Below, piece after piece: positions 1-30,562 of a stretch of 64,000 nt of DNA. The stretch is from Candidatus Bathyarchaeia archaeon (GTDB lineage: Archaea > Thermoproteota > Bathyarchaeia > Bathyarchaeales > Bathycorpusculaceae). Below the pieces are notes generated by a model that worked only from the letters and a program-made list of their open reading frames with translations, did not search any database and was not told where the DNA came from. A program made the translations under genes and the position numbers. The stretch is from NCBI GenBank assembly GCA_041447175.1, contig CP166960.1:2062519-2126518 (forward strand), in the 5' to 3' direction. Each line of letters begins with the position of its first letter. The stretch's first letter is position 1.

Positions 1-2660
1 ATGGGGGGCAAATCGCAGCTTTTGAGGGCTACACCAAATTTCTTATCCAACATCGCCAAAGTGGCGAGTTCAATAAGATTTACGCCGCGGGTCTTGCTTA
101 CAAACGGAATGGAGCGGGAAGCGCGCAGGTTGCATTCGATAACGCTCACTTCGCCGTCTTTCACAAGGTACTGGATGTTATAGGGACCTTTGATTTTGAG
201 GGCTTTGACAATTTTTTGGGTTGCATCTTCCACTTTCTTAAGAATGTCAGGAGTTAACGTTTGCGGCGGAATAGTCATGGTTGCATCGCCGCTGTGGACG
301 CCCGCGTTTTCCACATGCTCAATGACTGCGCCGATGAGGCAGGTTTCGCCGTCTGAGACGCCGTCAGCTTCGACTTCCTTGGCGCCCTCGATGAATTTAG
401 AAATAACAACGGGTTGGTCGCGGCTTACTTTGGCAGCCAACTTCAAAAAGTTGTCAAGCGAGGTTTCGTCGTAGGCGACCCGCATAGCCGAGCCCGAAAG
501 CACATAGCTGGGACGCACTATAACGGGGTAGCCGATTTTTTCGGCGAACAGTTTGGCGCCTTCGATGCTGGCGAGCTTGCTCCATGGCGGCTGGGGGATG
601 TCGAGTTTGTCAAGGAGTTCGCTGAATTTGGAGCGGTCTTCAGCGCGGTCGATGTCTTCGGCGGCAGTGCCAAGCAGTTTAACTCCGCTGTGAGCCAATT
701 TCATGGCAAGGGTATTGGGGATTTGTCCGCCTACGCTGGCTATGAGTCCCTGCGGGTTTTCCTTCTCGTAAATGTCCAGTATGCGTTCAGGACTTAACTC
801 TTCAAAGTACAGTTTGTCCGAAACGTCATAGTCGGTGCTGACGGTTTCAGGATTATAGTTAACCATGATGGCTTCTTGGACGCCGTACTTTTTGAGCGCC
901 CAAACCGTGTTAACCCCGCACCAGTCAAACTCTACACTGGAACCAATACGGAACACGCCCGCACCCAAAACTAAGACTTTACTTTTAGATTTGCTCAGTT
1001 CAATGTCGTCTTCGTCGCCGCCATAAGTCAAGTACAGGTAGTTGGTTTTAGCGGGGTACTCAGCCGCCAAAGTGTCAATCTGCTTCACCACAGGCACAAT
1101 ACCAGCGGTTTTTCTGAACTGCCGCACTTCAGGCTCGGTCGTGTCCGTGCAGATAGCGATTTGCTCATCAGAGAAGCCGAGGCGTTTTGCTTCGCGTACG
1201 GTTTCGGTGGCGGTGCTGTCTTTGAGGTGAAGCTCCCGCAGTTTGGTTTCCATGTTGATGATGTTTTGGATTTTATGTAAAAAGAAGGGATCCACGCCGC
1301 TAAGCTGATAGATTTCTTCGATGGATAACCCCATTTTGAGGGCTTTGACCAACTTGTAGAGCCGTTGGTCAGTGGGGTTTTGAAGAACTTCACGGATACG
1401 TTCTATGGGTTCAATCTCGGAGTCCTCAGGGTTACAAACCAAACCCAGCTTGCCCGTGTCAAGCATACGTACAGCTTTCTGCAGGGCTTCTTCAAGGCAT
1501 CGCCCAATAGACATAACTTCCCCGACGCTACGCATTTGGGGTCCAACGTGGCGGTCGGCGTACTTGAATTTCTGCAGGTCCCAGCGGGGAATTTTGACGG
1601 TGATGTAGTCTAGGGCGGGTTCAAAGCAGGCGGTGGTGACTTGGGTGACTTGGTTGAGCAATTCAGGCAACGTGTAGCCGATGGTCAGCTTTGTGGCTAT
1701 GTAGGCGAGGGGGTAGCCTGTGACTTTGCTGGCAAGGGCACTGCTTCGGCTCATGCGGCTGTTGACTTCTATGACACGGTACTCTTCGCTTTTTGGGTGC
1801 AACGCCCATTGAATGTTGCATTCGCCCACGATACCTAAGGCGCGGATAGCGTTTATGGAGGTGCTGCGGATAAGGTGATATTCACGGTTAGTCATGGTCT
1901 GCGAGGGCGCCACAACAATAGAGTCACCCGTGTGGACCCCCATAGGGTCAAAGTTTTCCATGTTACAGACGGTGAGGCAGTTATCGTTAAAGTCACGCAT
2001 AACTTCGTATTCGACTTCTTTCCAGTGCCCCACGTACTCTTCGACGAGAACTTGGCTGATGCGGCTTTGGGCTAAACCACGGGTTACGATTTCTTTAAGT
2101 TCGCTCTCGGTATGGGCTACGCCTGCGCCTTTGCCGCCCAAAGTGTAGGCAACGCGGACGATGACGGGGTAGCCAATTTCGTTTGCTACATCCAACGCGC
2201 CGCTAACGGTGGTCGCCGCTTTGCTTCTAAGGGGAGGAACACCTGCTTTGAGCATGGCTTCTCGGAAGCGTTCGCGGTCGCCCGTGTCCTCGATGGCTTG
2301 CACAGGGGTGCCTAAAACTTTAACGTTGTACTTTTCCAGTATGCCCTGTTTGTGGAGTTCAATACCGCAGTTCAACGCCGTTTGCCCACCGAAACCCAGC
2401 AGGACCCCATCGGGGCGTTCTTTGGCGATGACTTTCTCCACGTACTCAGGCGTGACAGGAAGCAAGTAAACCTTGCCAGACAATCGCGGGTCGGTTTGGA
2501 TGGTTGCAATGTTGGGGTTAATGAGAACGGTTTCGATGCCTTCTTCTTTGAGGGCTTTAAGACATTGGCTGCCGCTGTAGTCAAATTCTGCGGCTTCACC
2601 GATTTTAATTGCGCCGCTTCCCAGAACCAGAACTTTCTTGATCCATTCGAGCTTAGGCAT
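1..2660 (-). CDS. carB: Carbamoyl-phosphate synthase large subunit (3' end cut by window edge)
   Basis: Makes carbamoyl phosphate from ammonia (delivered by CarA), bicarbonate and two ATP, for arginine and pyrimidine synthesis. The ATG at 2660 overlaps the carA stop by one base (TAATG). The N-terminus reads MPKLEWIKKVLVLGSGAIKI and continues with typical ATP-grasp segments; near the window edge the frame still reads ECNLRASRSIPFVSK, a conserved stretch of the second synthetase half. About 886 codons are visible of a family length near 1070, so the C-terminal allosteric domain lies outside the window. Last gene seen of the argG-argH-carA-carB unit. Identification is firm. Confidence 0.96.
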   Translation of the reverse strand, partial: MPKLEWIKKVLVLGSGAIKIGEAAEFDYSGSQCLKALKEEGIETVLINPNIATIQTDPRLSGKVYLLPVTPEYVEKVIAKERPDGVLLGFGGQTALNCGIELHKQGILEKYNVKVLGTPVQAIEDTGDRERFREAMLKAGVPPLRSKAATTVSGALDVANEIGYPVIVRVAYTLGGKGAGVAHTESELKEIVTRGLAQSRISQVLVEEYVGHWKEVEYEVMRDFNDNCLTVCNMENFDPMGVHTGDSIVVAPSQTMTNREYHLIRSTSINAIRALGIVGECNIQWALHPKSEEYRVIEVNSRMSRSSALASKVTGYPLAYIATKLTIGYTLPELLNQVTQVTTACFEPALDYITVKIPRWDLQKFKYADRHVGPQMRSVGEVMSIGRCLEEALQKAVRMLDTGKLGLVCNPEDSEIEPIERIREVLQNPTDQRLYKLVKALKMGLSIEEIYQLSGVDPFFLHKIQNIINMETKLRELHLKDSTATETVREAKRLGFSDEQIAICTDTTEPEVRQFRKTAGIVPVVKQIDTLAAEYPAKTNYLYLTYGGDEDDIELSKSKSKVLVLGAGVFRIGSSVEFDWCGVNTVWALKKYGVQEAIMVNYNPETVSTDYDVSDKLYFEELSPERILDIYEKENPQGLIASVGGQIPNTLAMKLAHSGVKLLGTAAEDIDRAEDRSKFSELLDKLDIPQPPWSKLASIEGAKLFAEKIGYPVIVRPSYVLSGSAMRVAYDETSLDNFLKLAAKVSRDQPVVISKFIEGAKEVEADGVSDGETCLIGAVIEHVENAGVHSGDATMTIPPQTLTPDILKKVEDATQKIVKALKIKGPYNIQYLVKDGEVSVIECNLRASRSIPFVSKTRGVNLIELATLAMLDKKFGVALKSCDLPP

Positions 2661-3805
2661 TACTGTTTTGACTCCATGTTTTTGATGAAAATGTCAAAGA
2701 GAAATTCGGTGTCGTAGGGTCCCGGTGAGGCTTCAGGATGCCATTGCACGGCAAAAACGGGTTTGGTTTTGTGCCGCATGCCTTCGACGGATTTGTCATT
2801 GGCGTTGATGAACCAGCATTCCAGAGGCGTCTTGGAGAGGCAGTCAAATTCCGCAGCGTACCCGTGATTTTGGGTGGTTATGTAGCACCGGTTAGTTTTC
2901 AGGTCCAGCGCAGGCTGGTTTTGGCTCCGATGCCCAAACTTCATCTTGTAAGTGTTTCCACCCTGGGAAAGCGTCAGAATCTGCGCGCCCAAACAGATGC
3001 CCATGACAGGTTTCTCCTCTACGAGCACCTTCATGGTTTCGATGGTTTTGACGCATCTCTTAGGGTCGCCTGGTCCGTTGCTTAAGAATACGCCGTCGGG
3101 GTTGTAGCTGAGAACATCCTGGGCAGAAGTATCATAAGGAACACGAATCACATCCATGCCTCGGCGGAGGAGATTGCGTATTATGCTGTTTTTGACGCCG
3201 CAGTCGATGAGTACCACGGTGTGTTTGCCTTCTGCCTTGTACTGCACAGGTTCCTTTACGCTAACTTCACTAACCAAGTCGGTCAGGTTAGGGTCAGGAA
3301 TGCTTTGTGCTTCCTGCTGCAAGGCGTCAAGGTTTAGTTCTTCGTTTTCGGCGCAGACTTTAAGGATGCCCAGCATCACCCCGTGGGTTCGAAGTTTCTT
3401 AGTGAGCCTTCGGGAGTCCACGCCGCTTATGCCGGGGATACCTTCGTCTTGAAGCCATTTGTCCAGAGTCCGCGTGGAAGCCCAATGGTACGGCTCCGTG
3501 CAGAGCCCATGGATAATTAAGCCTTGAGTTTGGATACGTTCAGATTCAAAGTAAAGCGGCAGCCCCATATTCAGGTCATAAGGTGGAACGCCATAGTTGC
3601 CTACGAGCGGATAAGTTAGGGTTAGAATTTGTCCGCGGTAGGACGGGTCTGTGAGTGCCTCAGGGTAACCAACCATGGAGGTGGAGAAAACTACTTCACC
3701 AGAAAGTTTGGTTGATGCTCCGAAGCCTTTACCGAGAAAAATGGTGCCGTCTTCTAAGACCAGAGCCGCTTTTTTGCTTTTGCAGGAGTAAAGTTGTTGG
3801 ACCAA
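2660..3805 (-). CDS. carA: Carbamoyl-phosphate synthase small subunit (glutaminase)
   Basis: Hydrolyses glutamine and channels ammonia to CarB. At 381 residues it has the usual length. The N-terminal CPSase domain begins with ALVLEDGTIFLGKGFGA, and a class I glutamine amidotransferase domain follows. The nucleophile elbow is GICLGAQ with the cysteine near residue 271, and the His/Glu pair sits in WHPEASPGP near residues 356-358. Many relatives have GICLGHQ, so the A is a small variation. It starts 16 bases after the argH stop and overlaps carB by one base, which points to translational coupling in one operon. Confidence 0.96.
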   Translation of the reverse strand: MVQQLYSCKSKKAALVLEDGTIFLGKGFGASTKLSGEVVFSTSMVGYPEALTDPSYRGQILTLTYPLVGNYGVPPYDLNMGLPLYFESERIQTQGLIIHGLCTEPYHWASTRTLDKWLQDEGIPGISGVDSRRLTKKLRTHGVMLGILKVCAENEELNLDALQQEAQSIPDPNLTDLVSEVSVKEPVQYKAEGKHTVVLIDCGVKNSIIRNLLRRGMDVIRVPYDTSAQDVLSYNPDGVFLSNGPGDPKRCVKTIETMKVLVEEKPVMGICLGAQILTLSQGGNTYKMKFGHRSQNQPALDLKTNRCYITTQNHGYAAEFDCLSKTPLECWFINANDKSVEGMRHKTKPVFAVQWHPEASPGPYDTEFLFDIFIKNMESKQ

Positions 3806-3821
3806 AGCCCTATTCTACCTA

Positions 3822-5330
3822 TCATGTATAATTTTTAAACGTTCCGTTGCCACGGAATTGTGAGGCATACTGTTGAGCAGTTGTGCCCAACTTGTTTTCT
3901 GCCTCCCCAAGTTCCTTGTCCATCTTAGATATATTGGATTTGGTGCTCAGCACCATTTTTTCACGCAAAGCCAACATCCTTTTCACCTCAACCGGTGCTG
4001 GTCCACCCTTCACATTGCATGCCTCCACCAATTTTAAGGGGTCCGCAAGCGCCAAAATGTCCGCCGCGGCGACTTCCAGTTGGATGCCTGTGGAGTCTTG
4101 TGCGGCTTTCTGCAGCATGTTGGGAGTGGCTTGGGCAAACGTCAATTTGGCGTCTATGAGCTGTTTTACGAGGGCGCCGACGATTTTGTGGGCGGAACGG
4201 AAGGGCACGTTGTATTTGCGTACTAGCAGGTTGGCAAGTTCGGTTGCCGCGACGTAGTTTTTGAGGGCTTTGCCTTGGACGCCGGTTGCTGTGACTTTGA
4301 GTTTAGGCATAAGCTTGTGGAACATGTCAAGCGAAGCGCGGACGCCGTCGAGTGATTTCCAGAGTTTGGGGGTGAGTTCCTGAAAGTCCAAGTTGTAGGT
4401 TGAAGGCAGGCTCTTCACTGCTGCAGTTACTGCAACAAAGTTTGCCAAGATGTCGCTTGCTCTTGCGCGGATAACCTCCAGAAGCTCAGGATTCTTTTTC
4501 TGAGGCATGATGCTGCTGGTGCTTGTGAACTCGTCAGGAAGCTCCACGACACCAAAGTCTGGGCTGCTCCAGATGATGAAGTCTTCGGCGAGGCGGCTCA
4601 GGTTCACCGCGATTAACGTGAGGTCAGCGAGGGTTTCGGCTATGAAGTCCCGGCTGCCCACCGCATCAAGCGAGTTCTCCACCAGACCGCTAAAACCGAG
4701 CAGTTCGGCGGTGCGGTCGCGGTTAATGGGAAAACTGGTTGTCGCTAAGGCTCCTGCGCCCAGGGGGCATAGGTTGACACGGGTGTAGTCGTTTTGGAGC
4801 CGTTGCGCGTCCCGCTCCAAAGCATCAACGTACGAAAGCAGGTAATGGGCAAACGTTACGGGCTGGGCAGGCTGCAAGTGTGTGTACTCCAAAATCACAG
4901 TTTCCACATGCTCTTCCGCAACTTCCACGAGGTGCTCCTGCACATGTGTCAAGGAACGCAGCAAGGTAAGAAGCTCATTGCGCAGGGTCATGCGGATGGC
5001 GGTGGCGACTTGGTCGTTGCGGCTTTTGGCTATGTGCAGGTTTCCGCCTGCCTCGGAGCCTGCCTCTTTGAGGACAGCCTCTTCGACAGCCATGTGAACG
5101 TCCTCCATTGAGGAGTCAAGGGTTAAGTCTTCAGTTTTTTCTAAGGCTGCCAGAAGCGCCGCGCCATCCTGTTTGGCAATTATGTTTTGCTCCATCAACA
5201 TGACGACGTGGGCTTTGTTTATGGCGACCACAGCACTAAGAAGACGTGCGTCATCTTCGATTGAGGAAGTGAACTTGGCAACGTCTATGCGCATTGAGCC
5301 GAGTCTTCCGCCGTGTAGAATCTTTGACAC
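3822..5330 (-). CDS. argH: Argininosuccinate lyase
   Basis: Splits argininosuccinate into arginine and fumarate, the last step of arginine synthesis. The fumarase/ASL-superfamily signature is seen as SSIMPQKKNPE, with the catalytic-loop serine, and the early motif LHGGRLG is present. I place the start at the GTG at 5330 because GGAGG lies 7 bases upstream (5342-5338) and the protein then begins MSKILHGGRLG as in relatives (502 residues). The open frame runs 32 codons further upstream, but that would overlap the 3' end of argG by 73 bases. It follows argG by 23 bases. Confidence 0.95.
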   Translation of the reverse strand: MSKILHGGRLGSMRIDVAKFTSSIEDDARLLSAVVAINKAHVVMLMEQNIIAKQDGAALLAALEKTEDLTLDSSMEDVHMAVEEAVLKEAGSEAGGNLHIAKSRNDQVATAIRMTLRNELLTLLRSLTHVQEHLVEVAEEHVETVILEYTHLQPAQPVTFAHYLLSYVDALERDAQRLQNDYTRVNLCPLGAGALATTSFPINRDRTAELLGFSGLVENSLDAVGSRDFIAETLADLTLIAVNLSRLAEDFIIWSSPDFGVVELPDEFTSTSSIMPQKKNPELLEVIRARASDILANFVAVTAAVKSLPSTYNLDFQELTPKLWKSLDGVRASLDMFHKLMPKLKVTATGVQGKALKNYVAATELANLLVRKYNVPFRSAHKIVGALVKQLIDAKLTFAQATPNMLQKAAQDSTGIQLEVAAADILALADPLKLVEACNVKGGPAPVEVKRMLALREKMVLSTKSNISKMDKELGEAENKLGTTAQQYASQFRGNGTFKNYT

Positions 5331-5353
5331 ACTCAAACCTCCAAAAGTTAGAG

Positions 5354-6571
5354 TTATGGCTTCTCGGTTTCCTGTGCTTTGGCTGAATGCTTCAGCGCGT
5401 TGTACATGCGGGTTTGTAGACCCCACAGTTCGATGAAGCCTTTGCTGTAGGACTGGTTAAAGGACGTTTTGATGTTGTAGTTCGCAAGGTTCTTGTCGTA
5501 GAGCGACATCGGGGAGGAGCGTCCGACAACTTGGAGTCCGCCCTTGTAAAGTTTGAGGCGAACTTCGCCAGTCACGTTTTCTTGTGAGCGGTTAATGAAT
5601 GCGTCTAAGTCGGCTTTTAAGGGGTCAACCCACAGCCCTGCATATGCCAAAAAGACCCATTCAGCGTCCACTTGCTGCTTGAAGAGAACCTCATGGCGGG
5701 TCATAACCATTTTTTCGAGGTCTTTATGAGCTTCCAAAAGGACAATTGCGGCGGGGCACTCGTAGACTTCGCGGGATTTTATGCCGACAAGGCGGTCTTC
5801 AATGTGGTCTATGCGACCAACCCCGTTTCTGCCCGCGATTTCGTTGAGGGTTTCTATGAGTTTGAGGGGTTTCATTTTTTCGCCGTTAACCGAGACAGGA
5901 ATACCCGCCTCGAACTGGATGGTTACGTATTCGGGCGTGTTGGGCGCTTCTTCAGGAGCAACCGTCCACTCATAAGCTTCTGCAGGGGGCTCTTGGCTGG
6001 CGTCTTCAAGCAGCCCGCATTCGATGGCTCTGCCCCAGACGCTGGCGTCGATGCTGAATTTTTTTGCTGCGGTGGAGACGGGGATGTCTTTGGTTTTGGC
6101 GTACTCGATTTCTTCGTCGCGGGTTAAGCCCCAGTCGCGGACGGGGGCGAGGACTTTTTTGTCGGGTGCAAGGGAGCTGAGGGTTATGTCGAAACGGACT
6201 TGGTCGTTGCCTCTGCCTGTGCAACCGTGAACCAAACCTGTGGCGTCTTCGTTTTGGGCGATTTCCACCATCTTTTTGGCAATGAGGGGTCGGCTCAGGG
6301 TGGTACTTATGGGGTATTTGCCTTCGTAGAGGGCGTTGGCTTTAATGGCGGGGTAGATGTAGTCGGTGACGAATTCGTCTTTGGCGTCTACGTGGTAGTG
6401 TTTGAGGACGCCAAGTTTGTTGGCTTTTTCACCTGCGGCTGCCAAGTCTTCTGGTTGCCCTACGTCAACTGTGACGGTTATGACTTGGGCATCGTATCTT
6501 TCTTGCAGGTATTTGATGAGGACGGAGGTGTCTAATCCTCCACTGTAAGCTAGGACGAATTTTTCTGGCAT
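5354..6571 (-). CDS. argG: Argininosuccinate synthase
   Basis: Condenses citrulline and aspartate with ATP to argininosuccinate. The protein opens with MPEKFVLAYSGGLDTSVLI, the N-type ATP-pyrophosphatase P-loop (SGGLDTS), and later shows STTLSRPLIAKKMVEIA and GCTGRGNDQVRFD, all typical of ArgG. ATG 6571 is preferred over the in-frame GTG at 6580 because GGTGAG lies just upstream of the ATG; this gives about 405 residues. First gene of the minus-strand arginine operon. Its promoter lies in the shared 55-bp element at 6628-6682, with a TATA-like TTTAAAAAC about 25 bases before the presumed transcript start. Confidence 0.96.
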   Translation of the reverse strand: MPEKFVLAYSGGLDTSVLIKYLQERYDAQVITVTVDVGQPEDLAAAGEKANKLGVLKHYHVDAKDEFVTDYIYPAIKANALYEGKYPISTTLSRPLIAKKMVEIAQNEDATGLVHGCTGRGNDQVRFDITLSSLAPDKKVLAPVRDWGLTRDEEIEYAKTKDIPVSTAAKKFSIDASVWGRAIECGLLEDASQEPPAEAYEWTVAPEEAPNTPEYVTIQFEAGIPVSVNGEKMKPLKLIETLNEIAGRNGVGRIDHIEDRLVGIKSREVYECPAAIVLLEAHKDLEKMVMTRHEVLFKQQVDAEWVFLAYAGLWVDPLKADLDAFINRSQENVTGEVRLKLYKGGLQVVGRSSPMSLYDKNLANYNIKTSFNQSYSKGFIELWGLQTRMYNALKHSAKAQETEKP

Positions 6572-6627
6572 ATTGCTCACCCGTTATTGAAACGCGAATT
6601 GTTCCCCTTACCTTCCAGACAGCGTTT

Positions 6628-6682
6628 TTAAACATTACGACTTTTTTGTAACATAACAAGCTTTAAATGTTCTAAATGATAC
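6628..6682. promoter_or_regulatory. Shared promoter/operator element, copy A (argG / ACT-protein)
   Basis: This 55-base stretch matches 18451-18505 at 43 of 55 positions by hand alignment without gaps. Both copies sit between a minus-strand biosynthetic operon (argG here, lysW there) and a plus-strand gene for a putative regulator. It carries inverted ACATT (6632-6636) and AATGT (6666-6670) ends with the same spacing as in copy B. On the minus strand the left end contains the TATA-like TTTAAAAAC of argG. The right end runs over the ATG at 6676. I infer a common operator. Confidence 0.7.
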
Positions 6683-7272
6683 AGTTTTGGTTTGTGACCA
6701 TCGCCCAACAAGTCCGCAGCTACCTGCGAAACAAACCCTACCTCCTCGAAGCCTTAGAAAAAGGCATCGTCAACCTCAGCGAACTAAGCCGCCAAATCCA
6801 ACAAGAACTCAAAACAGGAAACGCCGTCGCCATCAAAGCCGCCCTACGAAGATTCGCCGAGGAACTCCAACGCCACAAACAAAAACGCGAAGAAAAAGTA
6901 CTCCAACTGCTCAAACGCAGCGGCGTTGCAGTCTACGACCGAAAAAGCGTCATAATCACCGCCAAAGAAATCGCCCTCAAAAACGGCTTAAAAGTTGACC
7001 TGCCAAATAAATACGTGTACCTACTAGACCGAGCAGACTTACCTCAGCGAATAAGCACATTGGTAAAACACGATAACTGCACCATGATTGTGATTAACTC
7101 CCCTGAAGAGTTAGAAGCCACAGTCGGAGTTGTTTCCTTCTTGACTGCCTTGCTGGCGGAAGCAAACGTGAACATCGTAGAGTTCGTTTCCTGCTGGACC
7201 GAAACCATCATCGTCGTGGAGAAAAAAGACAGCCTGAAAACGTACGAAACACTCACAAATTTAGTGGGCTAA
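6676..7272 (+). CDS. HTH-like plus ACT-domain protein, putative amino-acid sensor
   Basis: A soluble 198-residue protein. The first ~60 residues look like a helix-turn-helix segment (LLEALEKGIVNLSELSRQIQ), a coiled region follows (EELQRHKQKREEKVLQLL), and the C-terminal ~80 residues form an ACT-like fold ending in VNIVEFVSCWTETIIVVEKK. ACT domains bind amino acids and regulate enzymes or transcription. It lies between the divergent argG promoter and the thrB-thrC-hom-ask operon, so a role in arginine or aspartate-family control is likely but inferred. The ATG at 6676 lies inside the shared 55-bp element; a GTG at 6694 is an alternative start. Confidence 0.7.
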   Translation: MIQFWFVTIAQQVRSYLRNKPYLLEALEKGIVNLSELSRQIQQELKTGNAVAIKAALRRFAEELQRHKQKREEKVLQLLKRSGVAVYDRKSVIITAKEIALKNGLKVDLPNKYVYLLDRADLPQRISTLVKHDNCTMIVINSPEELEATVGVVSFLTALLAEANVNIVEFVSCWTETIIVVEKKDSLKTYETLTNLVG

Positions 7273-12064: not shown

Positions 12065-12688
12065 CTATTGTTTTTGGGCAAGAACCGCGTTCCATGGCGA
12101 AGCAACTTTCGTGAAAACCTGAACCGCCACAAAACCAGCCCGCCACATCGCCCTCTGGATTCTAGCCAACGGAATGAGCTGCACATGGGTCTGCTCAATC
12201 AGCTCTGAATTTTCAACTTCGTATTTGCCGTCTTGAATCATCTCGTTTACCAAAAGCAGCCACCCACCGGGCTTGAGCACCCTTTGTATCTCCTTTAAAG
12301 CGGCGGGGAAGTTGTTCCAGAAGTAGTAGGTTTCGATGGCGGTCACCAAATCAAAGGAGTCGTCGGGGAAGGGGATTTGTTCTGCGGTGCCGTGGGTGAT
12401 TTCGACGCGGTTTTGGGCAATCAGTTCGTGGTTGACTTCTTTGGAGAACTTCACCATGTCGGGGGAGTGGTCGATGCCGTAGATTTTGCCTTTGGGTGCC
12501 AGTTGGGCGAGTCGGTTGAGGGTTTTGCCGCCTCCGCAGCCCACATCCAAAATTGCCCAGTTAGGCTTGATGGTTAAGTGTGATAGCCCCCAGAGGGTCA
12601 GCGGTTCGTGCCCGCGGTTCATTGACTCGGCGACTTTTTTGCCGTCTTCGCCTGTGGGGCAACGGTACTGGTCCATTAGGTTAGGCAT
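12065..12688 (-). CDS. Class I SAM-dependent methyltransferase
   Basis: The Rossmann motif AILDVGCGGGKTLNRLA binds S-adenosylmethionine, and the later motifs IPFPDDSFDLVTAIETYYF and RVLKPGGWLLLVNE are those of the Methyltransf_11 type. I start at ATG 12688 (MPNLMDQYRCP, 207 residues). The frame extends 25 codons upstream inside lysK but that part is low-complexity Ser/Thr/Lys. It overlaps the lysK end by 8 bases and is the last gene of the lysW operon. The substrate is unknown; a link to lysine or arginine synthesis rests only on position. Confidence 0.8.
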   Translation of the reverse strand: MPNLMDQYRCPTGEDGKKVAESMNRGHEPLTLWGLSHLTIKPNWAILDVGCGGGKTLNRLAQLAPKGKIYGIDHSPDMVKFSKEVNHELIAQNRVEITHGTAEQIPFPDDSFDLVTAIETYYFWNNFPAALKEIQRVLKPGGWLLLVNEMIQDGKYEVENSELIEQTHVQLIPLARIQRAMWRAGFVAVQVFTKVASPWNAVLAQKQ

Positions 12689-13826
12689 GGTTTTGTCCTT
12701 GGAGTTTGGCGTTTCGGTTGTAGAGGTGGGAGAGTTTGAGGAGGGTTTCCTTGTAGATTTCAATTGCGCTGAGGTAGTCGCTTATGACAATATGCTCGTC
12801 TAACGTGTGGTCAAGGTGTCCGTCTCCGGGTCCGTAAGTGACGATGGGCATGTTCATGGCGTGCCCCAAAATGTTCATGTCGCCAGTGCCCGTTTTCCGC
12901 AGCAACGTGGCAGGTTTACCCAGAACCCGACGCAGCGACGCCGACAAAGCATGCACCAACGGGCTGCTTTTGTTAACCTCAAAGGGCTCCACTGTGTCTT
13001 CCACGGAGATTTTTAGGGTGACTTTGGGGTTTGCTTGCTCATATTGGGCAATGACGAGTTGGGTTTGCTCAAACACCTGCGCCGTCGTGTAAGGCAGAGG
13101 CACCCGTATGTCAATGTACATTTCTGCCTCGAAGGGAATCACGGAGGTGGCGTTTCCGCCTGTGAGCTTGGTGAGGCAGGCGGTTATGGCGTAGAAGGGG
13201 CTTTCAGCTTTCTCCAGCGGCTCGTAGCTGTTTTTTATGTGCTGCCATAACTCGTAAGCCTTGTCTAAGGCGTTCTCGTAGAGCCACGGGGTGGAAGCAT
13301 GTCCTGTTTCGGTTTTGCAGATGACTTTGAGTTGGATTTGCCCTTTGTAGCCGATGGTTATGTTTTCGACCCCGCTGGGTTCCCCAAACACGGCGTAGTC
13401 CGCCTGTATGCCTTGGGTTATCATGTGGCGCACGCCTCGGCTGGTTGCTTCCTCTTCGACAACGCTGGCAACCAGAATTTTGCCTTTCCCCTTGAACGCG
13501 GGGTCTTTGGCAACCTGAGCCGCAGCCACAATCATCGAAGCAAGGGGTCCTTTGGCGTCGACTGCGCCGCGGGCGTAGATTTTGCCTTCCTCCACCCGCA
13601 ACGGCAAATACCCCTCCACGGTATCCATGTGACCGCATAGGAAAATGGTGGGTTCCCCTTCGCCGACCACGCCTATCACGTTGCCAATCGCGTCAATGCC
13701 CACTTGGAACCCCATTTTCTTCATTTCTTTAGCCAAAAAAGCCGCGATGGTCTCCTCTTTTCCAGAGGGACTGTAGATGCCCAGCAGGTTAGTTAGAAAC
13801 CGTACTGCTCGAGTTTGCTCTTGCAT
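12681..13826 (-). CDS. lysK: [LysW]-lysine/[LysW]-ornithine hydrolase
   Basis: Releases lysine or ornithine from the C-terminal glutamate of LysW. It is an M20-family metallopeptidase: LCGHMDTVEG, GAVDAKGPLASM, VEEEATSRG and FGEPSG supply the metal ligands and catalytic acids. Start ATG 13826 (MQEQTRAVRFLTN, 381 residues) has GGAGG in front; it lies 38 bases inside the 3' end of lysJ. The longer open frame upstream adds MQFWRKKK only. The neighbours lysJ, lysZ, lysY, lysX and lysW separate it from general DapE/ArgE homologues. Confidence 0.93.
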   Translation of the reverse strand: MQEQTRAVRFLTNLLGIYSPSGKEETIAAFLAKEMKKMGFQVGIDAIGNVIGVVGEGEPTIFLCGHMDTVEGYLPLRVEEGKIYARGAVDAKGPLASMIVAAAQVAKDPAFKGKGKILVASVVEEEATSRGVRHMITQGIQADYAVFGEPSGVENITIGYKGQIQLKVICKTETGHASTPWLYENALDKAYELWQHIKNSYEPLEKAESPFYAITACLTKLTGGNATSVIPFEAEMYIDIRVPLPYTTAQVFEQTQLVIAQYEQANPKVTLKISVEDTVEPFEVNKSSPLVHALSASLRRVLGKPATLLRKTGTGDMNILGHAMNMPIVTYGPGDGHLDHTLDEHIVISDYLSAIEIYKETLLKLSHLYNRNAKLQGQNHA

Positions 13827-15006
13827 TTTCTTCTTCCTCCAAAACTGCATCCAGAACCGCTATGGCTTTGTCAACCTGTTCTTTAGTGATGACCAGCGGC
13901 GGCAGGAACCGTAGCACGTTGCGTCCTGCATCCAAGATAAGCACGCCACTCTGGGCGCATTTCATGAGGACATTGTAAACGTCGAAGCGCAGCTCCATGC
14001 CCAGCATCATACCTAACCCGCGAACCTCCTTAACCATCTTGTGCTTATCCGCTAACCCTTCAAGGTGCCCCTTGAAATAGCCACCCATAGACGCGGCTTT
14101 CTCAACCAAGTTCTCCTCAAGCAAGGCGTCGATGGCGGCGCAGCCTGCAGCGCAAACCAGCGGTCCACCGCTAAACGTTGTGGAATGCTCGCCAACTTTA
14201 AAGGCAGACATGATTTCCTGAGTGGCAACGGTCATGCCAATGGGCAACCCACCAGCAAACGGTTTAGCAAGCGTCATCACGTCGGGAGTTGTATCCCAGT
14301 TTTGGCATCCAAAAAGCTTGCCCGTTCGTCCAAAGCTGGTCTGTACCTCATCAAACATCAACAAGACACCTTTTTCCGTGCAAAGTTCCCGCACGCCCTG
14401 CAAGTAACCGTCGGGGGGGACGCGGATGCCGCCTTCGCCGCGGATGGGCTCCATTAAGACGGCGGCGGTTTTGTCGGTGATGGCGCCTTTGAGTTTGTCG
14501 AGGTTGTCTGGGGGTACATGTTTGACTTCGGGAACCAGCGGCATAAAGGGGGCACGGTACTTCTTGTCCCATGTGGCAGAGAGGGCGCCCATGGTTTTTC
14601 CGTGGAAGGCTCCCATAAGTGCGATGATTTCGGGTTTACCCGTGTATTTGCGGGCAAGCTTGATGGCACATTCAACGGATTCTGCGCCGCTGTTGCACAA
14701 AAACGCCTTATCCAAGCCCTTGGGCGTGATGGAGGTGAGTTTTTGGAGAAACTCGCTGCGTTTGTCGTTGTAGAGGCTGCCGTGGCAACAAATCAGCTGT
14801 TCAGCTTGGTCGCGGATGGCGGCGACGATTTTGGGGTGGCAGTGCCCCAGCAAGGCAACGCCGTAGCTGCCCATGCAGTCCACATATTCTCTTCCGTGGA
14901 TGTCCCAGAGCGAGGCAGCTTTGCCTTTGGTGATGACGATTTGGCGTTTGCCAAAAACGTTAGCCATCAACCGATTTTCAGCGTCTATAATTTCTTGCTC
15001 ATTCAT
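13789..15006 (-). CDS. lysJ: [LysW]-aminoadipate/glutamate semialdehyde aminotransferase
   Basis: Transfers an amino group from glutamate to the LysW-bound semialdehyde. It is a class III PLP aminotransferase: CNSGAESVECAIKLAR, GAFHGKTMGALSAT, LMFDEVQTSFGRTG and the PLP lysine in MTLAKPFAGGLPIG are all present. ATG 15006 overlaps the lysZ stop (TGATG) and gives 405 residues; GTG 15009 directly before it is the alternative. Assignment to LysJ rather than ArgD follows from the operon with LysW. Confidence 0.94.
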   Translation of the reverse strand: MNEQEIIDAENRLMANVFGKRQIVITKGKAASLWDIHGREYVDCMGSYGVALLGHCHPKIVAAIRDQAEQLICCHGSLYNDKRSEFLQKLTSITPKGLDKAFLCNSGAESVECAIKLARKYTGKPEIIALMGAFHGKTMGALSATWDKKYRAPFMPLVPEVKHVPPDNLDKLKGAITDKTAAVLMEPIRGEGGIRVPPDGYLQGVRELCTEKGVLLMFDEVQTSFGRTGKLFGCQNWDTTPDVMTLAKPFAGGLPIGMTVATQEIMSAFKVGEHSTTFSGGPLVCAAGCAAIDALLEENLVEKAASMGGYFKGHLEGLADKHKMVKEVRGLGMMLGMELRFDVYNVLMKCAQSGVLILDAGRNVLRFLPPLVITKEQVDKAIAVLDAVLEEEENARANSSSTVSN

Positions 15007-15809
15007 CACGTAATCACCGTTCCTGTTTCATGGTTTAAAGCGGCTGAGATGGGGGTTTTGCCCGTGCCCGCAGTAATAAGAACTTCGCCAACCCCTTGGT
15101 TAAGCGCCTCGGTGGCGGCGTGGACTTTGGTACTCATGCCTGCGCCGATGCGGCCTTGAACTTCGCGGACTTCGGCAGCGGCAATCTTGGGAATACGTTC
15201 ACCTTTAAGCATCAAGCCTTCAACGTCAGTTAGGAGGATGAGTTTGTCGGCTTTGAGGACTCCAGCTATGACTGCGGCGGTTCGGTCACCGTCCACGTTG
15301 AGCGGCTCAAACTCCTCGCTAAGGGCTATAGGCGTCACAATCGGCGTGTACCCTTTTTCCAGCAACGTGTGTAGCAGGTCGACGTTGACTTGATTGATTT
15401 TGCCGGTGTAGCCGCCATCCACGACGCGTTTGCGTCCACGTTCATCTACGGTTATGAGGCGTTTTTTGCGTTCCGCCTGCAAAATCCCCGCATCCAACCC
15501 TGAAAGCCCCACGGCGGCGATGCCTTGGCTCTGCAGGGCAAGGACGATTTGCTTGTTGAGTTTGCCTGCCATGACCATGGTGTAGATTTCGATGGTTTCT
15601 TTGTCGGTGTAGCGGCTTCGAAAACCCTCCGGCGACATGAGGAACTGCTGCTGTTTGCCCAGTTTACTCGAGATTTCGGTAACTTCGGCGCCCCCTCCGT
15701 GAACCAGAATGACCTTGTGCTGTGCAAGAAGCGTTTTGAGGTCTGAGACTAGGTCGCTTGAGGCGCCTTCTTTGAGTATGCTTCCACCCATCTTAATTAC
15801 AAGCAGCAT
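15006..15809 (-). CDS. lysZ: [LysW]-aminoadipate/glutamate kinase
   Basis: Phosphorylates the side-chain carboxylate of the LysW-linked amino acid. It is a 267-residue amino-acid kinase of the ArgB type: MLLVIKMGGSILKEG at the N-terminus, VHGGGAEVTEIS, NVDGDRTAAVIAGVLKADKLILLTDVEGLM, and GRIGAGMSTKVHAA near the C-terminus. It lies between lysY (6-base gap) and lysJ (1-base overlap). A single gene set of this kind can serve both lysine and arginine in some archaea; the co-occurrence of argG, argH and carAB nearby favours dual use, but this is inferred. Confidence 0.94.
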   Translation of the reverse strand: MLLVIKMGGSILKEGASSDLVSDLKTLLAQHKVILVHGGGAEVTEISSKLGKQQQFLMSPEGFRSRYTDKETIEIYTMVMAGKLNKQIVLALQSQGIAAVGLSGLDAGILQAERKKRLITVDERGRKRVVDGGYTGKINQVNVDLLHTLLEKGYTPIVTPIALSEEFEPLNVDGDRTAAVIAGVLKADKLILLTDVEGLMLKGERIPKIAAAEVREVQGRIGAGMSTKVHAATEALNQGVGEVLITAGTGKTPISAALNHETGTVIT

Positions 15810-15815
15810 GGCAGA

Positions 15816-16871
15816 TCACATCGGGTGAAAACCCGTACTTTTTAGGCCCGTGGTTTCGTCAATGCCCAGCATGAGGTTGAGGCATTGTACGCCTTGGCCA
15901 GAAGCGCCCTTCACCATGTTATCGATTGCGCTGAACATGAGCAGGTGGTTGGTGTGGGGGTCAATTTCAAAGCCCAAGTCGCAGTAGTTGGTGCCCAAGG
16001 TGACTTTGGGGTCGGGCAACTGGTAGAGCCCCTTCTGGTATTTGACAAAGCGTATGAAGGGCTCGTCGATGTAGGTGGAGCGGAGGGCTTTCCAGAGGTC
16101 TTTGGCAGCAAGGGGCTGCTTGGGAAACGCGTGAACCGTCGCAAGTATGCCTCGCACCATGTTCACTGCGTGGGGGGTAAACCCGACCTTCACGGGTTCG
16201 CTGGTGAAGGCGTTAACTTCCTGCTCAACCTCGCCTATGTGGCGGTGCATGACAACCTTGTAGGGGCGCACGCCGCCAAACCGCTCAGGATGATGCGATG
16301 CGGGTGTGGGTTTGCTGCCGCCGCCGCTGCTGCCCACTTTAAGGTCAACCACAAGGTATTTGGGGTCAACCAACCCCGCCTTCACGAGAGGAACCAACGC
16401 GAAAATGGCAGCCGACGCCATGCATCCAGGACAGGCAACGAGGCGGGCTTTCTTGATTTCTTCTCGGTGGAACTCAGGCATACCGTAAGCGGCTTCTTGG
16501 AGCAGTTCGGGGTGGGCGTGCTTCCAACCGTACCAAGTTTCGTAGTCGGCGGGGTTTTTGAGGCGAAAATCCGCACTCATATCAATAACTTTGAGTCCTG
16601 CTTCGAGCAGTTTGGGCACAAGGTTTACGCTACCGCCGTGAGGGGTAGCTGTGAAGATGAGGTCGCAGTTCTTCTGCAACTCCCCGATGTCCATGGGAAC
16701 AAATTTAAGTTGGGTTAACCCGCGCAGGTTAGGGTGTGCATTGAAGACGTATTCTCCTGCGCTCTGCCGACTGGTAACCATGGTTACCTCTACTTCAGGG
16801 TGCAGAAGCAACAAACGGAGAAGTTCTCCGCCGACGTAGCCTGTTCCGCCAATTATACCAATTCGCATCAT
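15816..16871 (-). CDS. lysY: [LysW]-aminoadipyl/glutamyl phosphate reductase
   Basis: NADPH-dependent reduction of the LysW-bound acyl phosphate to the semialdehyde. It opens MMRIGIIGGTGYVGGELLRL (NAD(P)-binding), carries the active-site cysteine in LVACPGCMASAAIFAL, and has VGSSGGGSKPTPASHHPERF, a stretch typical of the ArgC/LysY group. ATG 16871 (351 residues) has GGAGA upstream. The frame is open for 40 more codons into the lysX 3' end, but those codons are the other strand frame of lysX and are not part of the protein. A 32-base gap separates it from lysX. Confidence 0.94.
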   Translation of the reverse strand: MMRIGIIGGTGYVGGELLRLLLLHPEVEVTMVTSRQSAGEYVFNAHPNLRGLTQLKFVPMDIGELQKNCDLIFTATPHGGSVNLVPKLLEAGLKVIDMSADFRLKNPADYETWYGWKHAHPELLQEAAYGMPEFHREEIKKARLVACPGCMASAAIFALVPLVKAGLVDPKYLVVDLKVGSSGGGSKPTPASHHPERFGGVRPYKVVMHRHIGEVEQEVNAFTSEPVKVGFTPHAVNMVRGILATVHAFPKQPLAAKDLWKALRSTYIDEPFIRFVKYQKGLYQLPDPKVTLGTNYCDLGFEIDPHTNHLLMFSAIDNMVKGASGQGVQCLNLMLGIDETTGLKSTGFHPM

Positions 16872-16903
16872 ACATTTTCTCCTGTGTTGTGTCTGTGTGA
16901 CTG

Positions 16904-18076
16904 TTAAAGGAGGCTTTGGGCACCCTTTAGAAGGGGGATTGCCACGTTCATGCCCGTTATGGTTCGGGTTTGCTCCCAAAACTCGGGGCATGAATTTGCC
17001 TCATGGAAAACGACGCAGGCACAATTTGCCTTTACGTTCTCCTCAATTATTGCCTTCACTTTAGCGTAAGGCTCAGTGGCTTTATAGCTGTTAACTGCAG
17101 CCTCCAGCCGCAGATTCCAAGCCGTGAAGTCCCGCAGCCGCGTTTCATCCCGCTTAACCTTCTGCACGTCGCCCCACGCCTTTGCTGCCTTTTCCGCCTC
17201 CGCTTTAAGAGCTTGGTCGTCGGCGTTTTTGTTTTCGCCCACGTTAACCATGGCGTCCATGGCAAAAACCCAAGCTTCATGTCCGCCGCCCAGAGCGGTG
17301 CCACAGCGGGATGCAAGCTCGCGGATGTTTTGGGGTAGTTTGGCGTCAAACACCAAGTTGCCCAAGAAGGTGTTGGTACGAAAATCGCTAAAGCTGGCGC
17401 GTGCCAGGGCGACTGGGTGGCATACGGGGTCTTTGTGTTTTTCTTTGTAAACGATTATTCGGAGGTCGTAGAACCATTTGTCTATGAGTTCCTGCCCAAC
17501 GATGCCCACGGGGTTAATGATTGAGGGTTCGGTTTGTCCGATGTTTGTGATGAGGTCTTGGTGGGTTTTGGAGAGCACGATGCCTTTGCCGTGGGTGCCT
17601 GCATCGGGTTTAACAAGCACTTCTTTGCCGATTTCTTGCTCCAATAGGTCGGCGATGTCGGGTTCGTTGCGGATTTTTCTGCCGTCCTTGGTTGTGTCGT
17701 AGGGGTCGCAGGGGACGTAGGTGGTTTGGGGAATGGGTAAGCCTGCTGCCCACAGATGCATGAGGGTGCGGAATTTGCTGTAGCACGTGAACTCTACACA
17801 CGAGGGGTTGATGACCTGTTTCTGGAGCAACTCCATGGTGTGGGCGGCGTAGAGGCGGCGGTTTTTGCTTTGCGCCCGATTAAGAACCACGGTCACGTCT
17901 TTGACGGTTTGAGTGAAGTCTTTACCCTTACTGGCGACGTGAAAGCCCGTTTTCCCAATGGAGACGGCGATTTTGCGGAACGGAATGAATGTGAGGTCGA
18001 TGCCGAGTTGTTGGGCGGTGAGTTTGATGCCGTTTTCGTCGTTTTCGGAGCGTTCATAAAGAAGACCAATGCTCAC
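16904..18076 (-). CDS. lysX: LysX-like ATP-grasp ligase with a ~75-residue insertion
   Basis: Links aminoadipate or glutamate to the C-terminal glutamate of LysW. ATP-grasp features: KEVLVKPDAGTHGKGI (residues ~151-166), WFYDLRIIVY, and the metal-binding pair in FHEANSCPEF (Glu359, Asn361). The protein has 390 residues while the family is usually near 280. The excess lies mostly at residues ~278-350, an alanine/lysine/glutamate-rich helical segment inserted just before the last metal-binding strand. Start GTG 18076 follows GGAGG by 9 bases. A TATA-like GTTTAAATAAC lies about 25 bases upstream of the start, so an extra internal promoter is possible. Confidence 0.85.
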   Translation of the reverse strand: MSIGLLYERSENDENGIKLTAQQLGIDLTFIPFRKIAVSIGKTGFHVASKGKDFTQTVKDVTVVLNRAQSKNRRLYAAHTMELLQKQVINPSCVEFTCYSKFRTLMHLWAAGLPIPQTTYVPCDPYDTTKDGRKIRNEPDIADLLEQEIGKEVLVKPDAGTHGKGIVLSKTHQDLITNIGQTEPSIINPVGIVGQELIDKWFYDLRIIVYKEKHKDPVCHPVALARASFSDFRTNTFLGNLVFDAKLPQNIRELASRCGTALGGGHEAWVFAMDAMVNVGENKNADDQALKAEAEKAAKAWGDVQKVKRDETRLRDFTAWNLRLEAAVNSYKATEPYAKVKAIIEENVKANCACVVFHEANSCPEFWEQTRTITGMNVAIPLLKGAQSLL

Positions 18077-18176: not shown

Positions 18177-18350
18177 TTATTCGCCCCAGTCTTCTCCTTC
18201 CAGAGTCAGTTCCTGAAGGTCAACGCATCCACCGTGAACTTGTTTCACTTCAAGTTCTAGTCCGCATCCTGGGCAGCTTAGAATTTCCCCTGCGGCAGTG
18301 TCTTGTGGAACGTCTAGGTCGGCGTCACAATCGGGGCATTTAGCTTTCAT
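18177..18350 (-). CDS. lysW: LysW amino-group carrier protein
   Basis: Small acidic protein that carries the growing lysine or ornithine on its C-terminal glutamate. The C-terminus is EDWGE, the family signature. A zinc site is formed by CPDCDAD and CPGCGLE. I choose ATG 18350 (57 residues, the family's normal size) because GAGGTGA precedes it by 5 bases. An in-frame ATG at 18395 would add 15 residues (MSKETAKLETNEVKA) and sits about 25 bases behind the presumed transcript start, so it cannot be excluded. First gene of the lys operon. Confidence 0.92.
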   Translation of the reverse strand: MKAKCPDCDADLDVPQDTAAGEILSCPGCGLELEVKQVHGGCVDLQELTLEGEDWGE

Positions 18351-18450
18351 TGCCTTCACCTCGTTAGTTTCCAATTTTGCTGTTTCTTTACTCATTTTGG
18401 TTATCTCACTTTATTTTTGGAAATATCAGTGTGAGTTGCTCGCGTTTCTT

Positions 18451-18505
18451 TTAAACATTGCGACTTATTTGCAACACATTAGGCTTCTAATGTCCCAAAT
18501 GAGAC
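18451..18505. promoter_or_regulatory. Shared promoter/operator element, copy B (lysW / Lrp regulator)
   Basis: Second copy of the 55-base element at 6628-6682 (43 of 55 bases equal, no gaps). ACATT is at 18455-18459 and AATGT at 18489-18493, the same distance apart as in copy A. On the minus strand the TTTAAAAGAA at its left end is a TATA-like box for lysW. The plus-strand Lrp gene begins 142 bases beyond it. The placement, between a biosynthetic operon and a regulator, mirrors copy A. Confidence 0.7.
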
Positions 18506-18646
18506 ATCAAAACAGCGCCACCCGCAAGGACCCTTCCGAAAAAACTCAGCTCACACATCAAACACAACGAAAAACGCATCAAAAACCACCAGAAAATACG
18601 AAATCATTAAATTCAAATAAACCAACAGTACAACGAGGAAACACTG

Positions 18647-19057
18647 TTGGACGACGTAGACCGCAAAATTATCCAAATCCTAAAAGATGACGGACGCGCA
18701 GGATACATCGACATAGGCAAACAAATCAGCCTATCCGAAGGCGCCGTCAGAAAAAGAATCAAAACCCTCTCCGACACAGGAGTCATCCAAAAATTCACCA
18801 TCAAAGTGGGGGTTACAGAAGGCGCCGAAGCCATCGCCCTGCTCTCTGTCAGCCCATCCCTGCCAACACAAGAAGTCTCCAAAAGAATCCAGAAAATCCC
18901 CAACGTAGAAACCATCTACGAAGTCACCGGCGAATACGACATCGTGGTGGTTATCAGCGGCATAAACGTGGTTGAAGTTAACGAGGGAATAGAGAAAATC
19001 CGCCGCGTCGAAGGCGTAATGAAAACCAACACCATGATTGTCCTACGCGGCGCATAA
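18647..19057 (+). CDS. Lrp/AsnC-family transcription regulator (LysM-like)
   Basis: 136 residues. The N-terminal winged helix-turn-helix reads LDDVDRKIIQILKDDGRAGY followed by IGKQISLSEGAVRKRIKTLS. The C-terminal RAM/ACT-like effector domain includes VETIYEVTGEYDIVVVISG. Start is TTG 18647 with GAGG 8 bases upstream. It is divergent from lysW. In several archaea an Lrp-type protein called LysM sits beside the LysW operon and responds to lysine; the same job is likely here, and copy B of the 55-bp element would be the natural target. The effector is not known from sequence. Confidence 0.88.
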   Translation: MDDVDRKIIQILKDDGRAGYIDIGKQISLSEGAVRKRIKTLSDTGVIQKFTIKVGVTEGAEAIALLSVSPSLPTQEVSKRIQKIPNVETIYEVTGEYDIVVVISGINVVEVNEGIEKIRRVEGVMKTNTMIVLRGA

Positions 19058-28624: not shown

Positions 28625-29716
28625 ATGAAAAAAACCTACGCGACGGCGGCAGTGATCATAGCAGTGATCCTGCTTGCCTCCACCTACTTTTTTGTTTTAA
28701 ACAACAACCCAGAAGAACAACAACCCAAACAAGTGCTCAAAGTTTACTGCGCCACCAGCCTCGAGTATCCACTGGCAATTGTAGAAGCTGACTTTGAGGA
28801 AGAATACCCCAACGTGGATTTACAGGTTCAGGGGCACGGAACAATCCAAGTAATCAGACACGTCACAGAGTTAAATCAAGAACTTGATGTGGTTATGGCA
28901 GCGGATTACTCGCTGATTCCAACCATGATGTACCCCACCAAAATTTCAGGCACCGACCAGAGCTACGGCACTTACTACATCCGATTCGCAACCAACACCA
29001 TGGTTCTTGCGTACACCAACACCAGCAAATACTCCGACGAAATCAACGCCGACAACTGGTACTCCATCCTCACGCGTCCCGATGTGAAGTTCGGGTTTGC
29101 TAACCCACAACTGGCTGCACTGGGATACCGCGCTTTAACAACCATTCAACTCGCCCAAGACTACTACAACAAACCCACACTGTTTCACGACTTAATCACC
29201 GATAACATGAACCCGCCGATAAACTCCATCGCCAGCGGAACCGGCTACACCATCACCGTTCCCGACACGCAGCAGCCGAAAAACGACAAAGTCACTTTGC
29301 GGTCAAGCGAAATAGACTTAATTGCTCTGCTTCAGTCCGGGTACCTTGACTACTCATTCATTTACCTGAGCAACGCAAGACAGTACGATTTTGGCTACAT
29401 AACGTTGCCTGACGAAATCAACTTGGGCTCGCCACAACAGCAAAGCAACTATGAACGCGTCCAAGTTGTCTATGACCACCAAAGATTTGCTACCGTGAAC
29501 CTTGACCGCACGGGCGAAAACATCTACTACGGCTTAACCATACCCACCAATGCGCCAAACCCGGAATGGGCAGAAAAATTTGTAGAGTTTGTTTTGGCGG
29601 GACAGGGAAAAACCGACTTTGACAACTGCTACCACCCTATCTACACTCCAGCATACACTGACCACATCGAGAACGTTCCAGCAAGCCTGCAGTCACTTGT
29701 CGCTGCAGAACCCTAA
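28625..29716 (+). CDS. wtpA: Tungstate/molybdate-binding protein of the ABC importer
   Basis: 363 residues. N-terminal signal/anchor (residues ~5-25), then a type II binding-protein fold: KVYCATSLEYPLAIVEADFE, VQGHGTIQVIRHVTEL and DVVMAADYSLIPTMMYP are typical of WtpA. The C-terminal region has YYGLTIPTNAPNPEWAEKFV. It captures tungstate or molybdate outside the cell for WtpBC. Tungsten use fits archaeal aldehyde:ferredoxin oxidoreductases and formylmethanofuran dehydrogenases, none of which lies in this window. A run of seven T follows the stop. Confidence 0.92.
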   Translation: MKKTYATAAVIIAVILLASTYFFVLNNNPEEQQPKQVLKVYCATSLEYPLAIVEADFEEEYPNVDLQVQGHGTIQVIRHVTELNQELDVVMAADYSLIPTMMYPTKISGTDQSYGTYYIRFATNTMVLAYTNTSKYSDEINADNWYSILTRPDVKFGFANPQLAALGYRALTTIQLAQDYYNKPTLFHDLITDNMNPPINSIASGTGYTITVPDTQQPKNDKVTLRSSEIDLIALLQSGYLDYSFIYLSNARQYDFGYITLPDEINLGSPQQQSNYERVQVVYDHQRFATVNLDRTGENIYYGLTIPTNAPNPEWAEKFVEFVLAGQGKTDFDNCYHPIYTPAYTDHIENVPASLQSLVAAEP

Positions 29717-29767
29717 CCTTTTTTTAAAAAGCACAGATAACCTCCAGTAGTGGACGGAGAGATAAGT

Positions 29768-30562
29768 GTGGGTTGGATAAAAGAGAAGTCCCTCTTCATC
29801 GCGGCATCCCTAATCTTAAGCGTAATTATGATACTGTTTCTGATGGTTCCAATAATAGGCACCTTGACAAGTTCAGCTTCAGGCATCCCCGCAGCCTTAA
29901 CAGACCAAAGAACGCTTAGCGCAATATGGACCAGTTTTTACTGCGCCTTCATAGCCACAGCTTTCATGTTGCTGCTGGGCGTGCCATTTGCTTACCTGTT
30001 CACCCACACGGAATTTCACGGAAAAAAACTCCTTGACTCCTTAATCGACATCCCCATACTTTTGCCCCACAACACCGCAGGCATCGCCCTGTTTGCCATT
30101 CTGGCGCCAAGCTACCCCATCGGAGCCGCCTTCGCCAAGTTAGGCATAGGGTTTGTGGACACGGTGTGGGGCATCGTGGCGGCTATGGCGTTTGTCAGCG
30201 CCCCCTTCATGATACGCAGCGCCCAAGAAGCCTTCACCTCCATAAGCCCCGACATGGAAAAAACCGGGCGCAGCTTAGGCGCAACACGGTTCAAAGTATT
30301 TAGGCATGTTACTTTACCGCTGGCGTGGCGGGGCATCCTAACGGGGTGCTTACTGACATGGGCAAGAGCCGTCAGCGAATTCGGAGCCGTAGCCATAATC
30401 GCGTACTTCCCCAAAACCGCACCCATCTACCTCTACGACACCTTCGTCACATACGGGTTAAACGCGGCGCTTCCAGTGAATGCGGTACTGATAATTCTTG
30501 CCATCACGATTCTGCTGGTGTTTAGGGCAACTGTGTTGAAATCAAAAAAGCTGATACCGTAA
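29768..30562 (+). CDS. wtpB: Tungstate/molybdate ABC transporter permease
   Basis: About 264 residues, six predicted membrane helices. The permease EAA loop is seen as SISPDMEKTGRSLGATRFKVFRHVTLPLAWRGILTG. GTG 29768 is preferred because GGAGAG lies 5-6 bases upstream; GTG 29750 would add only MDGEIS and has no ribosome site. The other two components of the importer flank it. Confidence 0.93.
   Translation: MGWIKEKSLFIAASLILSVIMILFLMVPIIGTLTSSASGIPAALTDQRTLSAIWTSFYCAFIATAFMLLLGVPFAYLFTHTEFHGKKLLDSLIDIPILLPHNTAGIALFAILAPSYPIGAAFAKLGIGFVDTVWGIVAAMAFVSAPFMIRSAQEAFTSISPDMEKTGRSLGATRFKVFRHVTLPLAWRGILTGCLLTWARAVSEFGAVAIIAYFPKTAPIYLYDTFVTYGLNAALPVNAVLIILAITILLVFRATVLKSKKLIP

Follow-up and report, generated by a model that had tools for sequence, protein, structure and literature searches.

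Gene regulation in Bathyarchaeia is little known, and the locus analyzed here raises a concrete question: why do two divergent promoters, one serving an arginine operon and the other a lysine operon, share a matching stretch of DNA, and which protein would read it? Within the window, meaning the whole 64,000-nucleotide stretch of DNA under analysis, positions 6628-6682 and 18451-18505 were originally predicted to share 43 of 55 bases in an ungapped alignment, and we found the same count; when the whole window was scanned, the next-ranking positions for either stretch reached 29-30 of 55. A core sequence, CATTRCGACTTWTTTGYAACA, occurs twice in the window against 0.01 expected occurrences, and its exact matches in the whole 2.73-Mb genome are the argG and lysW sites alone, with the next place carrying 3 mismatches.

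A composite element at the argG and lysW promoters

Each stretch is flanked by a minus-strand biosynthetic operon and a plus-strand regulator-like gene, and each starts at the TATA box of its operon, as had been claimed. On the arginine side, the minus strand carries argG (argininosuccinate synthase, the operon's first gene, 5354..6571), argH (argininosuccinate lyase, 3822..5426) and carA (carbamoyl-phosphate synthase small subunit, named from its translation, 2660..3805). The divergent plus-strand gene (6694..7272, with its GTG start at 6694 placed by alignment with relatives) encodes a DUF7523-ACT_7 protein, hereafter the ACT protein, and is followed downstream by thrB, thrC, hom and an aspartate kinase gene. 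On the lysine side, the minus strand carries the lysW carrier protein gene (18177..18350, in a reading frame open to 18395) and lysX, lysY, lysZ, lysJ and lysK (12681..18076), facing a plus-strand gene for a LysM-like Lrp/AsnC regulator with a TTG start (18647..19057). LysZ matches best a bifunctional [LysW]-aminoadipate/[LysW]-glutamate kinase model (297.6 bits against a cutoff of 194), and the LysW operon may therefore serve both lysine and ornithine. Elsewhere in the window, genes at 28625-30562 resemble a molybdate/tungstate ABC transporter, judged from translation only.

The full unit spans 58 bp (6626..6683 and 18449..18506, both on the minus strand), extending the original 55-bp limits, and is ordered as Box1, a 14-bp spacer, Box2 and BRE/TATA; in gene orientation it reads TGTNYCAAATGGNACA - 14 bp - TGTNACAAATAAGTCRCAA-N2-TTTAAAA. 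Box1 is 16 bp long (TGTNYC-AAAT-GGNACA, a TGTNYC N4 GGNACA dyad), and Box2 is 18 bp long (TGTNAC-AAATAA-GTCRCA, a TGTNAC N6 GTCRCA dyad) and abuts BRE/TATA. By alignment and symmetry scan, the argG-side minus strand carries Box1 TGTATCATTTAGAACA at 6668..6683 and Box2 TGTTACAAAAAAGTCGTA at 6636..6653, with the operon TATA box TTTAAAA at 6626..6632 in nearly invariant alignment columns; the lysW-side minus strand carries Box1 TGTCTCATTTGGGACA at 18491..18506 and Box2 TGTTGCAAATAAGTCGCA at 18459..18476, with TTTAAAA aligned at 18449..18455. The argG-side Box1 also lies between the start of the divergent ACT gene and its probable TATA box, CTTTAAA (6661..6667, plus strand), which is kept in argG elements.

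When symmetry was scanned at all positions of 92 orthologous copies, the top 16-mer was Box1 and the top 18-mer was Box2. The ACATT...AATGT ends noted in the original prediction are indeed equally spaced in both copies, but column conservation and the same scan ruled them out as dyad arms. A TTRC-N9-GYAA reading of Box2, prompted by compensating changes between the two copies in the window, showed low symmetry and is not kept in relatives. Between the centers of Box1 and Box2 lie 31 bp, close to three turns of the helix, which places them on the same helix face, and the register from Box1 to TATA is fixed, with 49 copies aligning without gaps; in the 61-column alignment, Box2 occupies columns 31-48 and TATA columns 52-58, gap-free among the aligned copies. 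One copy (genome G108, L060) has lost Box1. Together, these features make the 55-bp stretch most likely a composite operator-promoter with two dyads as predicted regulator sites.

Distribution and targets of the element

To survey relatives, argG and lysX were located in 91 genomes from this family, and the upstream DNA was searched for the element without using the flanks. By pattern search among these Candidatus Bathyarchaeota relatives, the element lies upstream of the TATA box at 40 of 44 argG and 52 of 57 lysW promoters, and R1, a sequence-only 61-column model of the element, added weak lysW copies in G009, G013 and G028. At E≤0.01, R1 matched 58 of the 91 family genomes; its matches in the window's genome are those at lysW (E=8.2e-16) and argG (E=1.4e-15) only. 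Many random hits, or a lack of conservation upstream of argG and lysW in related genomes, would have spoken against the original prediction; we found two sites in 2.73 Mb, no match outside the family at E≤0.001 in an order-wide search of 130 genomes, and strong conservation within it. Both the small number of sites and their conservation support a common regulator for the arginine and lysine operons.

Additional copies outline the target set. About eight relatives have a second lysW gene that stands alone, with the full element and its TATA ATATTTAA upstream (L165-L169, L172, L173, L175), and carA lies directly downstream of the element in two genomes where argG was not found (G017, L199, beside its ACT gene; G095, L198). 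The targets could be simply the arginine-plus-lysine branch of LysW metabolism. Separately, a copy was seen upstream of a TFS-like zinc-ribbon gene, named from its translation, in G075 (L181) and G074 (L182).

In one genus (g12), element copies precede a structured RNA of about 230-270 nt. The RNA has two similar domains and ends that form a closing stem; many copies also show a terminator-like hairpin with a T run. Its 5′ domain shows compensatory changes in 19 of 23 pairs, a level reached by 0 of 500 shuffles; fitting the alignment to the structure of the model favors such counts, but slid controls fell far below. An Rfam search with four of the RNA loci returned no match even at E≤1. The RNA occurs in 49 of the 130 order genomes, over several families and with several copies in some genomes (loci L212-L241). 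In the window's genome it lies outside the window (C1:620729-620921, L220) with no element upstream; in genus g12, many copies follow a Box1/Box2 promoter.

Candidate regulators

The original prediction named two proteins, the ACT protein and the LysM-like Lrp; co-occurrence and the Box1 at its own promoter favor the former, and the latter is disfavored. Among 58 genomes at least 90% complete, 40 have both the ACT gene and the element, 18 have neither and none is discordant, a co-occurrence confounded by shared ancestry because most element-bearing genomes also carry lysM; two of the 58 carry lysM without the element, and the contrast between ACT and LysM draws on few independent lineages. It may also be that entire lysW promoters were inherited along with their neighbors. 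Across the order, the full-length ACT protein was found only in element-bearing genomes, and beyond the family only its ACT half was matched. A single element-bearing genome lacks the gene (G030); its argG match begins at base 7 of the contig, and the ACT region therefore falls off the contig. Where the ACT gene has moved away from argG (G066, G085, G087), its promoter keeps TATA and Box1, while the argG copy loses the ACT-side TATA and retains both boxes. Box1 at this promoter is consistent with an autoregulated ACT gene, or more modestly with one that is controlled through this box.

The ACT_7 domain, at residues 126-188, is present in eight of eight members of the protein group, and the N-terminal DUF7523 half is helical and very conserved. 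AlphaFold models were weak (pLDDT 50 for the whole protein, 75.5 for the N-terminal half), and Foldseek searches with both gave no significant match. Comparison of the protein sequence with solved structures likewise returned nothing, and a search for Arg_repressor gave no significant match (best E 0.13, in one of eight members).

The gene for the LysM-like protein lies divergent from lysW in the window and at nearly all lysW-element loci, and one could propose that the protein binds Box1 and Box2 and controls both operons as an arginine- and lysine-responsive Lrp. Its best NCBIfam match is LysM (164.5 bits, below the curated cutoff of 180, hence clearly LysM-like but short of the equivalog), and among solved structures PH1519/FL11, reported to respond to lysine and arginine (PMC2995911), is the nearest relative. 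Moreover, LysM of Sulfolobus activates lysWXJK, and arginine-pathway transcripts of nutrient-limited S. acidocaldarius dropped together with lysM (PMC6335949). We nonetheless consider this proposal unlikely, because in family f6 lysM orthologues (63-68% identity) face lysW without the element and with a different dyad: TACG-N5-CGTA is present between the two genes at 7 of 7 loci, and the order-wide search found no copy of the element in that family. In the family studied here, a variant of this TACG-N5-CGTA type is present in 26 of 54 lysM promoters by strict count against 1.3 expected, and no TGT..ACA dyad was found in lysM's own promoter. The window's copy, AACGAAAAACGCA (18566..18578, plus strand), lies upstream of lysM's BRE/TATA, is conserved and, by comparison, is probably a LysM site. 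lysM and the element also occur apart: in G014, G098 and G104 the lysM gene neighbors dapA/asd and the element is missing, whereas G009 and G028 keep a strong element at argG though lysM sits at dapA. It thus appears that lysM has a dyad of its own and that this family's lysW promoter carries a different one. The dapA-lysM region of G014 and G104 contains TACGAAAAACGTA, and lysM orthologues divergent from dapA were observed at L200, L201, L202, L204 and L249, with asd adjacent in L200, L204 and L249; the regulator gene would seem to accompany whichever lysine pathway operates, DAP or LysW.

Alternatively, the element might be bound by a third regulator from this archaeal family, encoded at an unlinked site: linkage does not prove binding, and the genome may hold other Lrp-like candidates, of which a first look gave 43, most below threshold. 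Such a protein would need to share the phyletic pattern of the ACT gene, and Box1 at the ACT promoter would then mark that gene as a plain target; we rate this somewhat below even the LysM proposal. That the match reflects only a strong basal promoter, or a recently copied one, with no specific regulator is very improbable. The right half of Box2 does overlap the BRE and the TATA box lies within the match, but Box1 has its center some 46 bp upstream of TATA, and its half-site columns for the most part come close to TATA itself in conservation. The element is not a general promoter, given only two copies in the genome, and both copies persist across the family, contrary to a recent duplication. 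A leader or riboswitch acting as RNA is hardly credible: the element adjoins the 5′ ends of both operons, beyond which we found no support for this reading, and it lies upstream of the operon TATA box in all copies and hence outside the operon transcripts.

On balance, the ACT protein is probably the regulator that acts through Box1 and Box2 at the argG and lysW operons. One regulator would then govern argG-argH-carA together with the LysW carrier operon that would supply ornithine and lysine. With an amino acid as the signal read by its ACT domain, this regulator would occupy both boxes as dimers and control TBP/TFB access. When the amino acid is scarce, argG and lysW would be activated, a direction suggested by position, because Box2 adjoins the BRE in the layout of archaeal Lrp-type activators. 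The ACT gene would be repressed through the Box1 between its TATA and start, again judging by position.

More tentatively, and short of what we would call probable, a previously undescribed class of archaeal arginine/lysine regulator (DUF7523-ACT), acting through an operator of its own, may have displaced LysM at the LysW operon of a single Bathyarchaeia family; one genus may also use it to control a structured non-coding RNA not described before. A complete small regulon is legible from genomes alone: its operator and targets, a candidate for the regulator, and the probable switch of regulators at lysW. If true, this would provide a function for DUF7523-ACT proteins and show how arginine and lysine synthesis through the shared LysW carrier is coordinated outside Sulfolobus.

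Relation to known systems

Like other ACT-domain regulators of amino-acid metabolism, the candidate carries a recognizable ACT domain (ACT_7), but the N-terminal half consists of DUF7523, for which neither a DNA site nor a solved relative is known. In its proposed role it resembles bacterial ArgR, a single regulator that coordinates arginine synthesis genes with autoregulation; unlike ArgR, it lacks a significant Arg_repressor match. The dyad sequence of Box1 and Box2 differs from the bacterial ARG box, and in the ARG-box literature we found nothing on archaea.

Parallels in layout come from archaeal activators, for which a dimer site immediately before the BRE is described (PMC2995911); Box2 likewise holds a fixed position adjoining BRE/TATA. 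As with the archaeal Lrp activators Ptr2 and Ss-LrpB, sites are regularly spaced upstream of the BRE on one helix face; unlike theirs (the Ss-LrpB consensus is TTGCAAAATTTGCAA; PMC4046817), the boxes here measure 16 and 18 bp, have TGTNNC half-sites and exceed the 13-15 bp dyad of Lrp/FFRP operators. A further comparison is with LysM and lysWXJK of Sulfolobus, which share with this locus an Lrp-type gene linked to lysW and a link between the lysine and arginine pathways (PMC2995911, PMC8578740, PMC6335949), as well as the activator layout, with its dimer site directly before the BRE. The systems differ in that the Lrp-type protein here does not reach the LysM equivalog cutoff, the dyads at the lysW promoter are of the TGT..ACA kind, unlike the lysM-associated TACG-N5-CGTA, and the same element is also present at argG.
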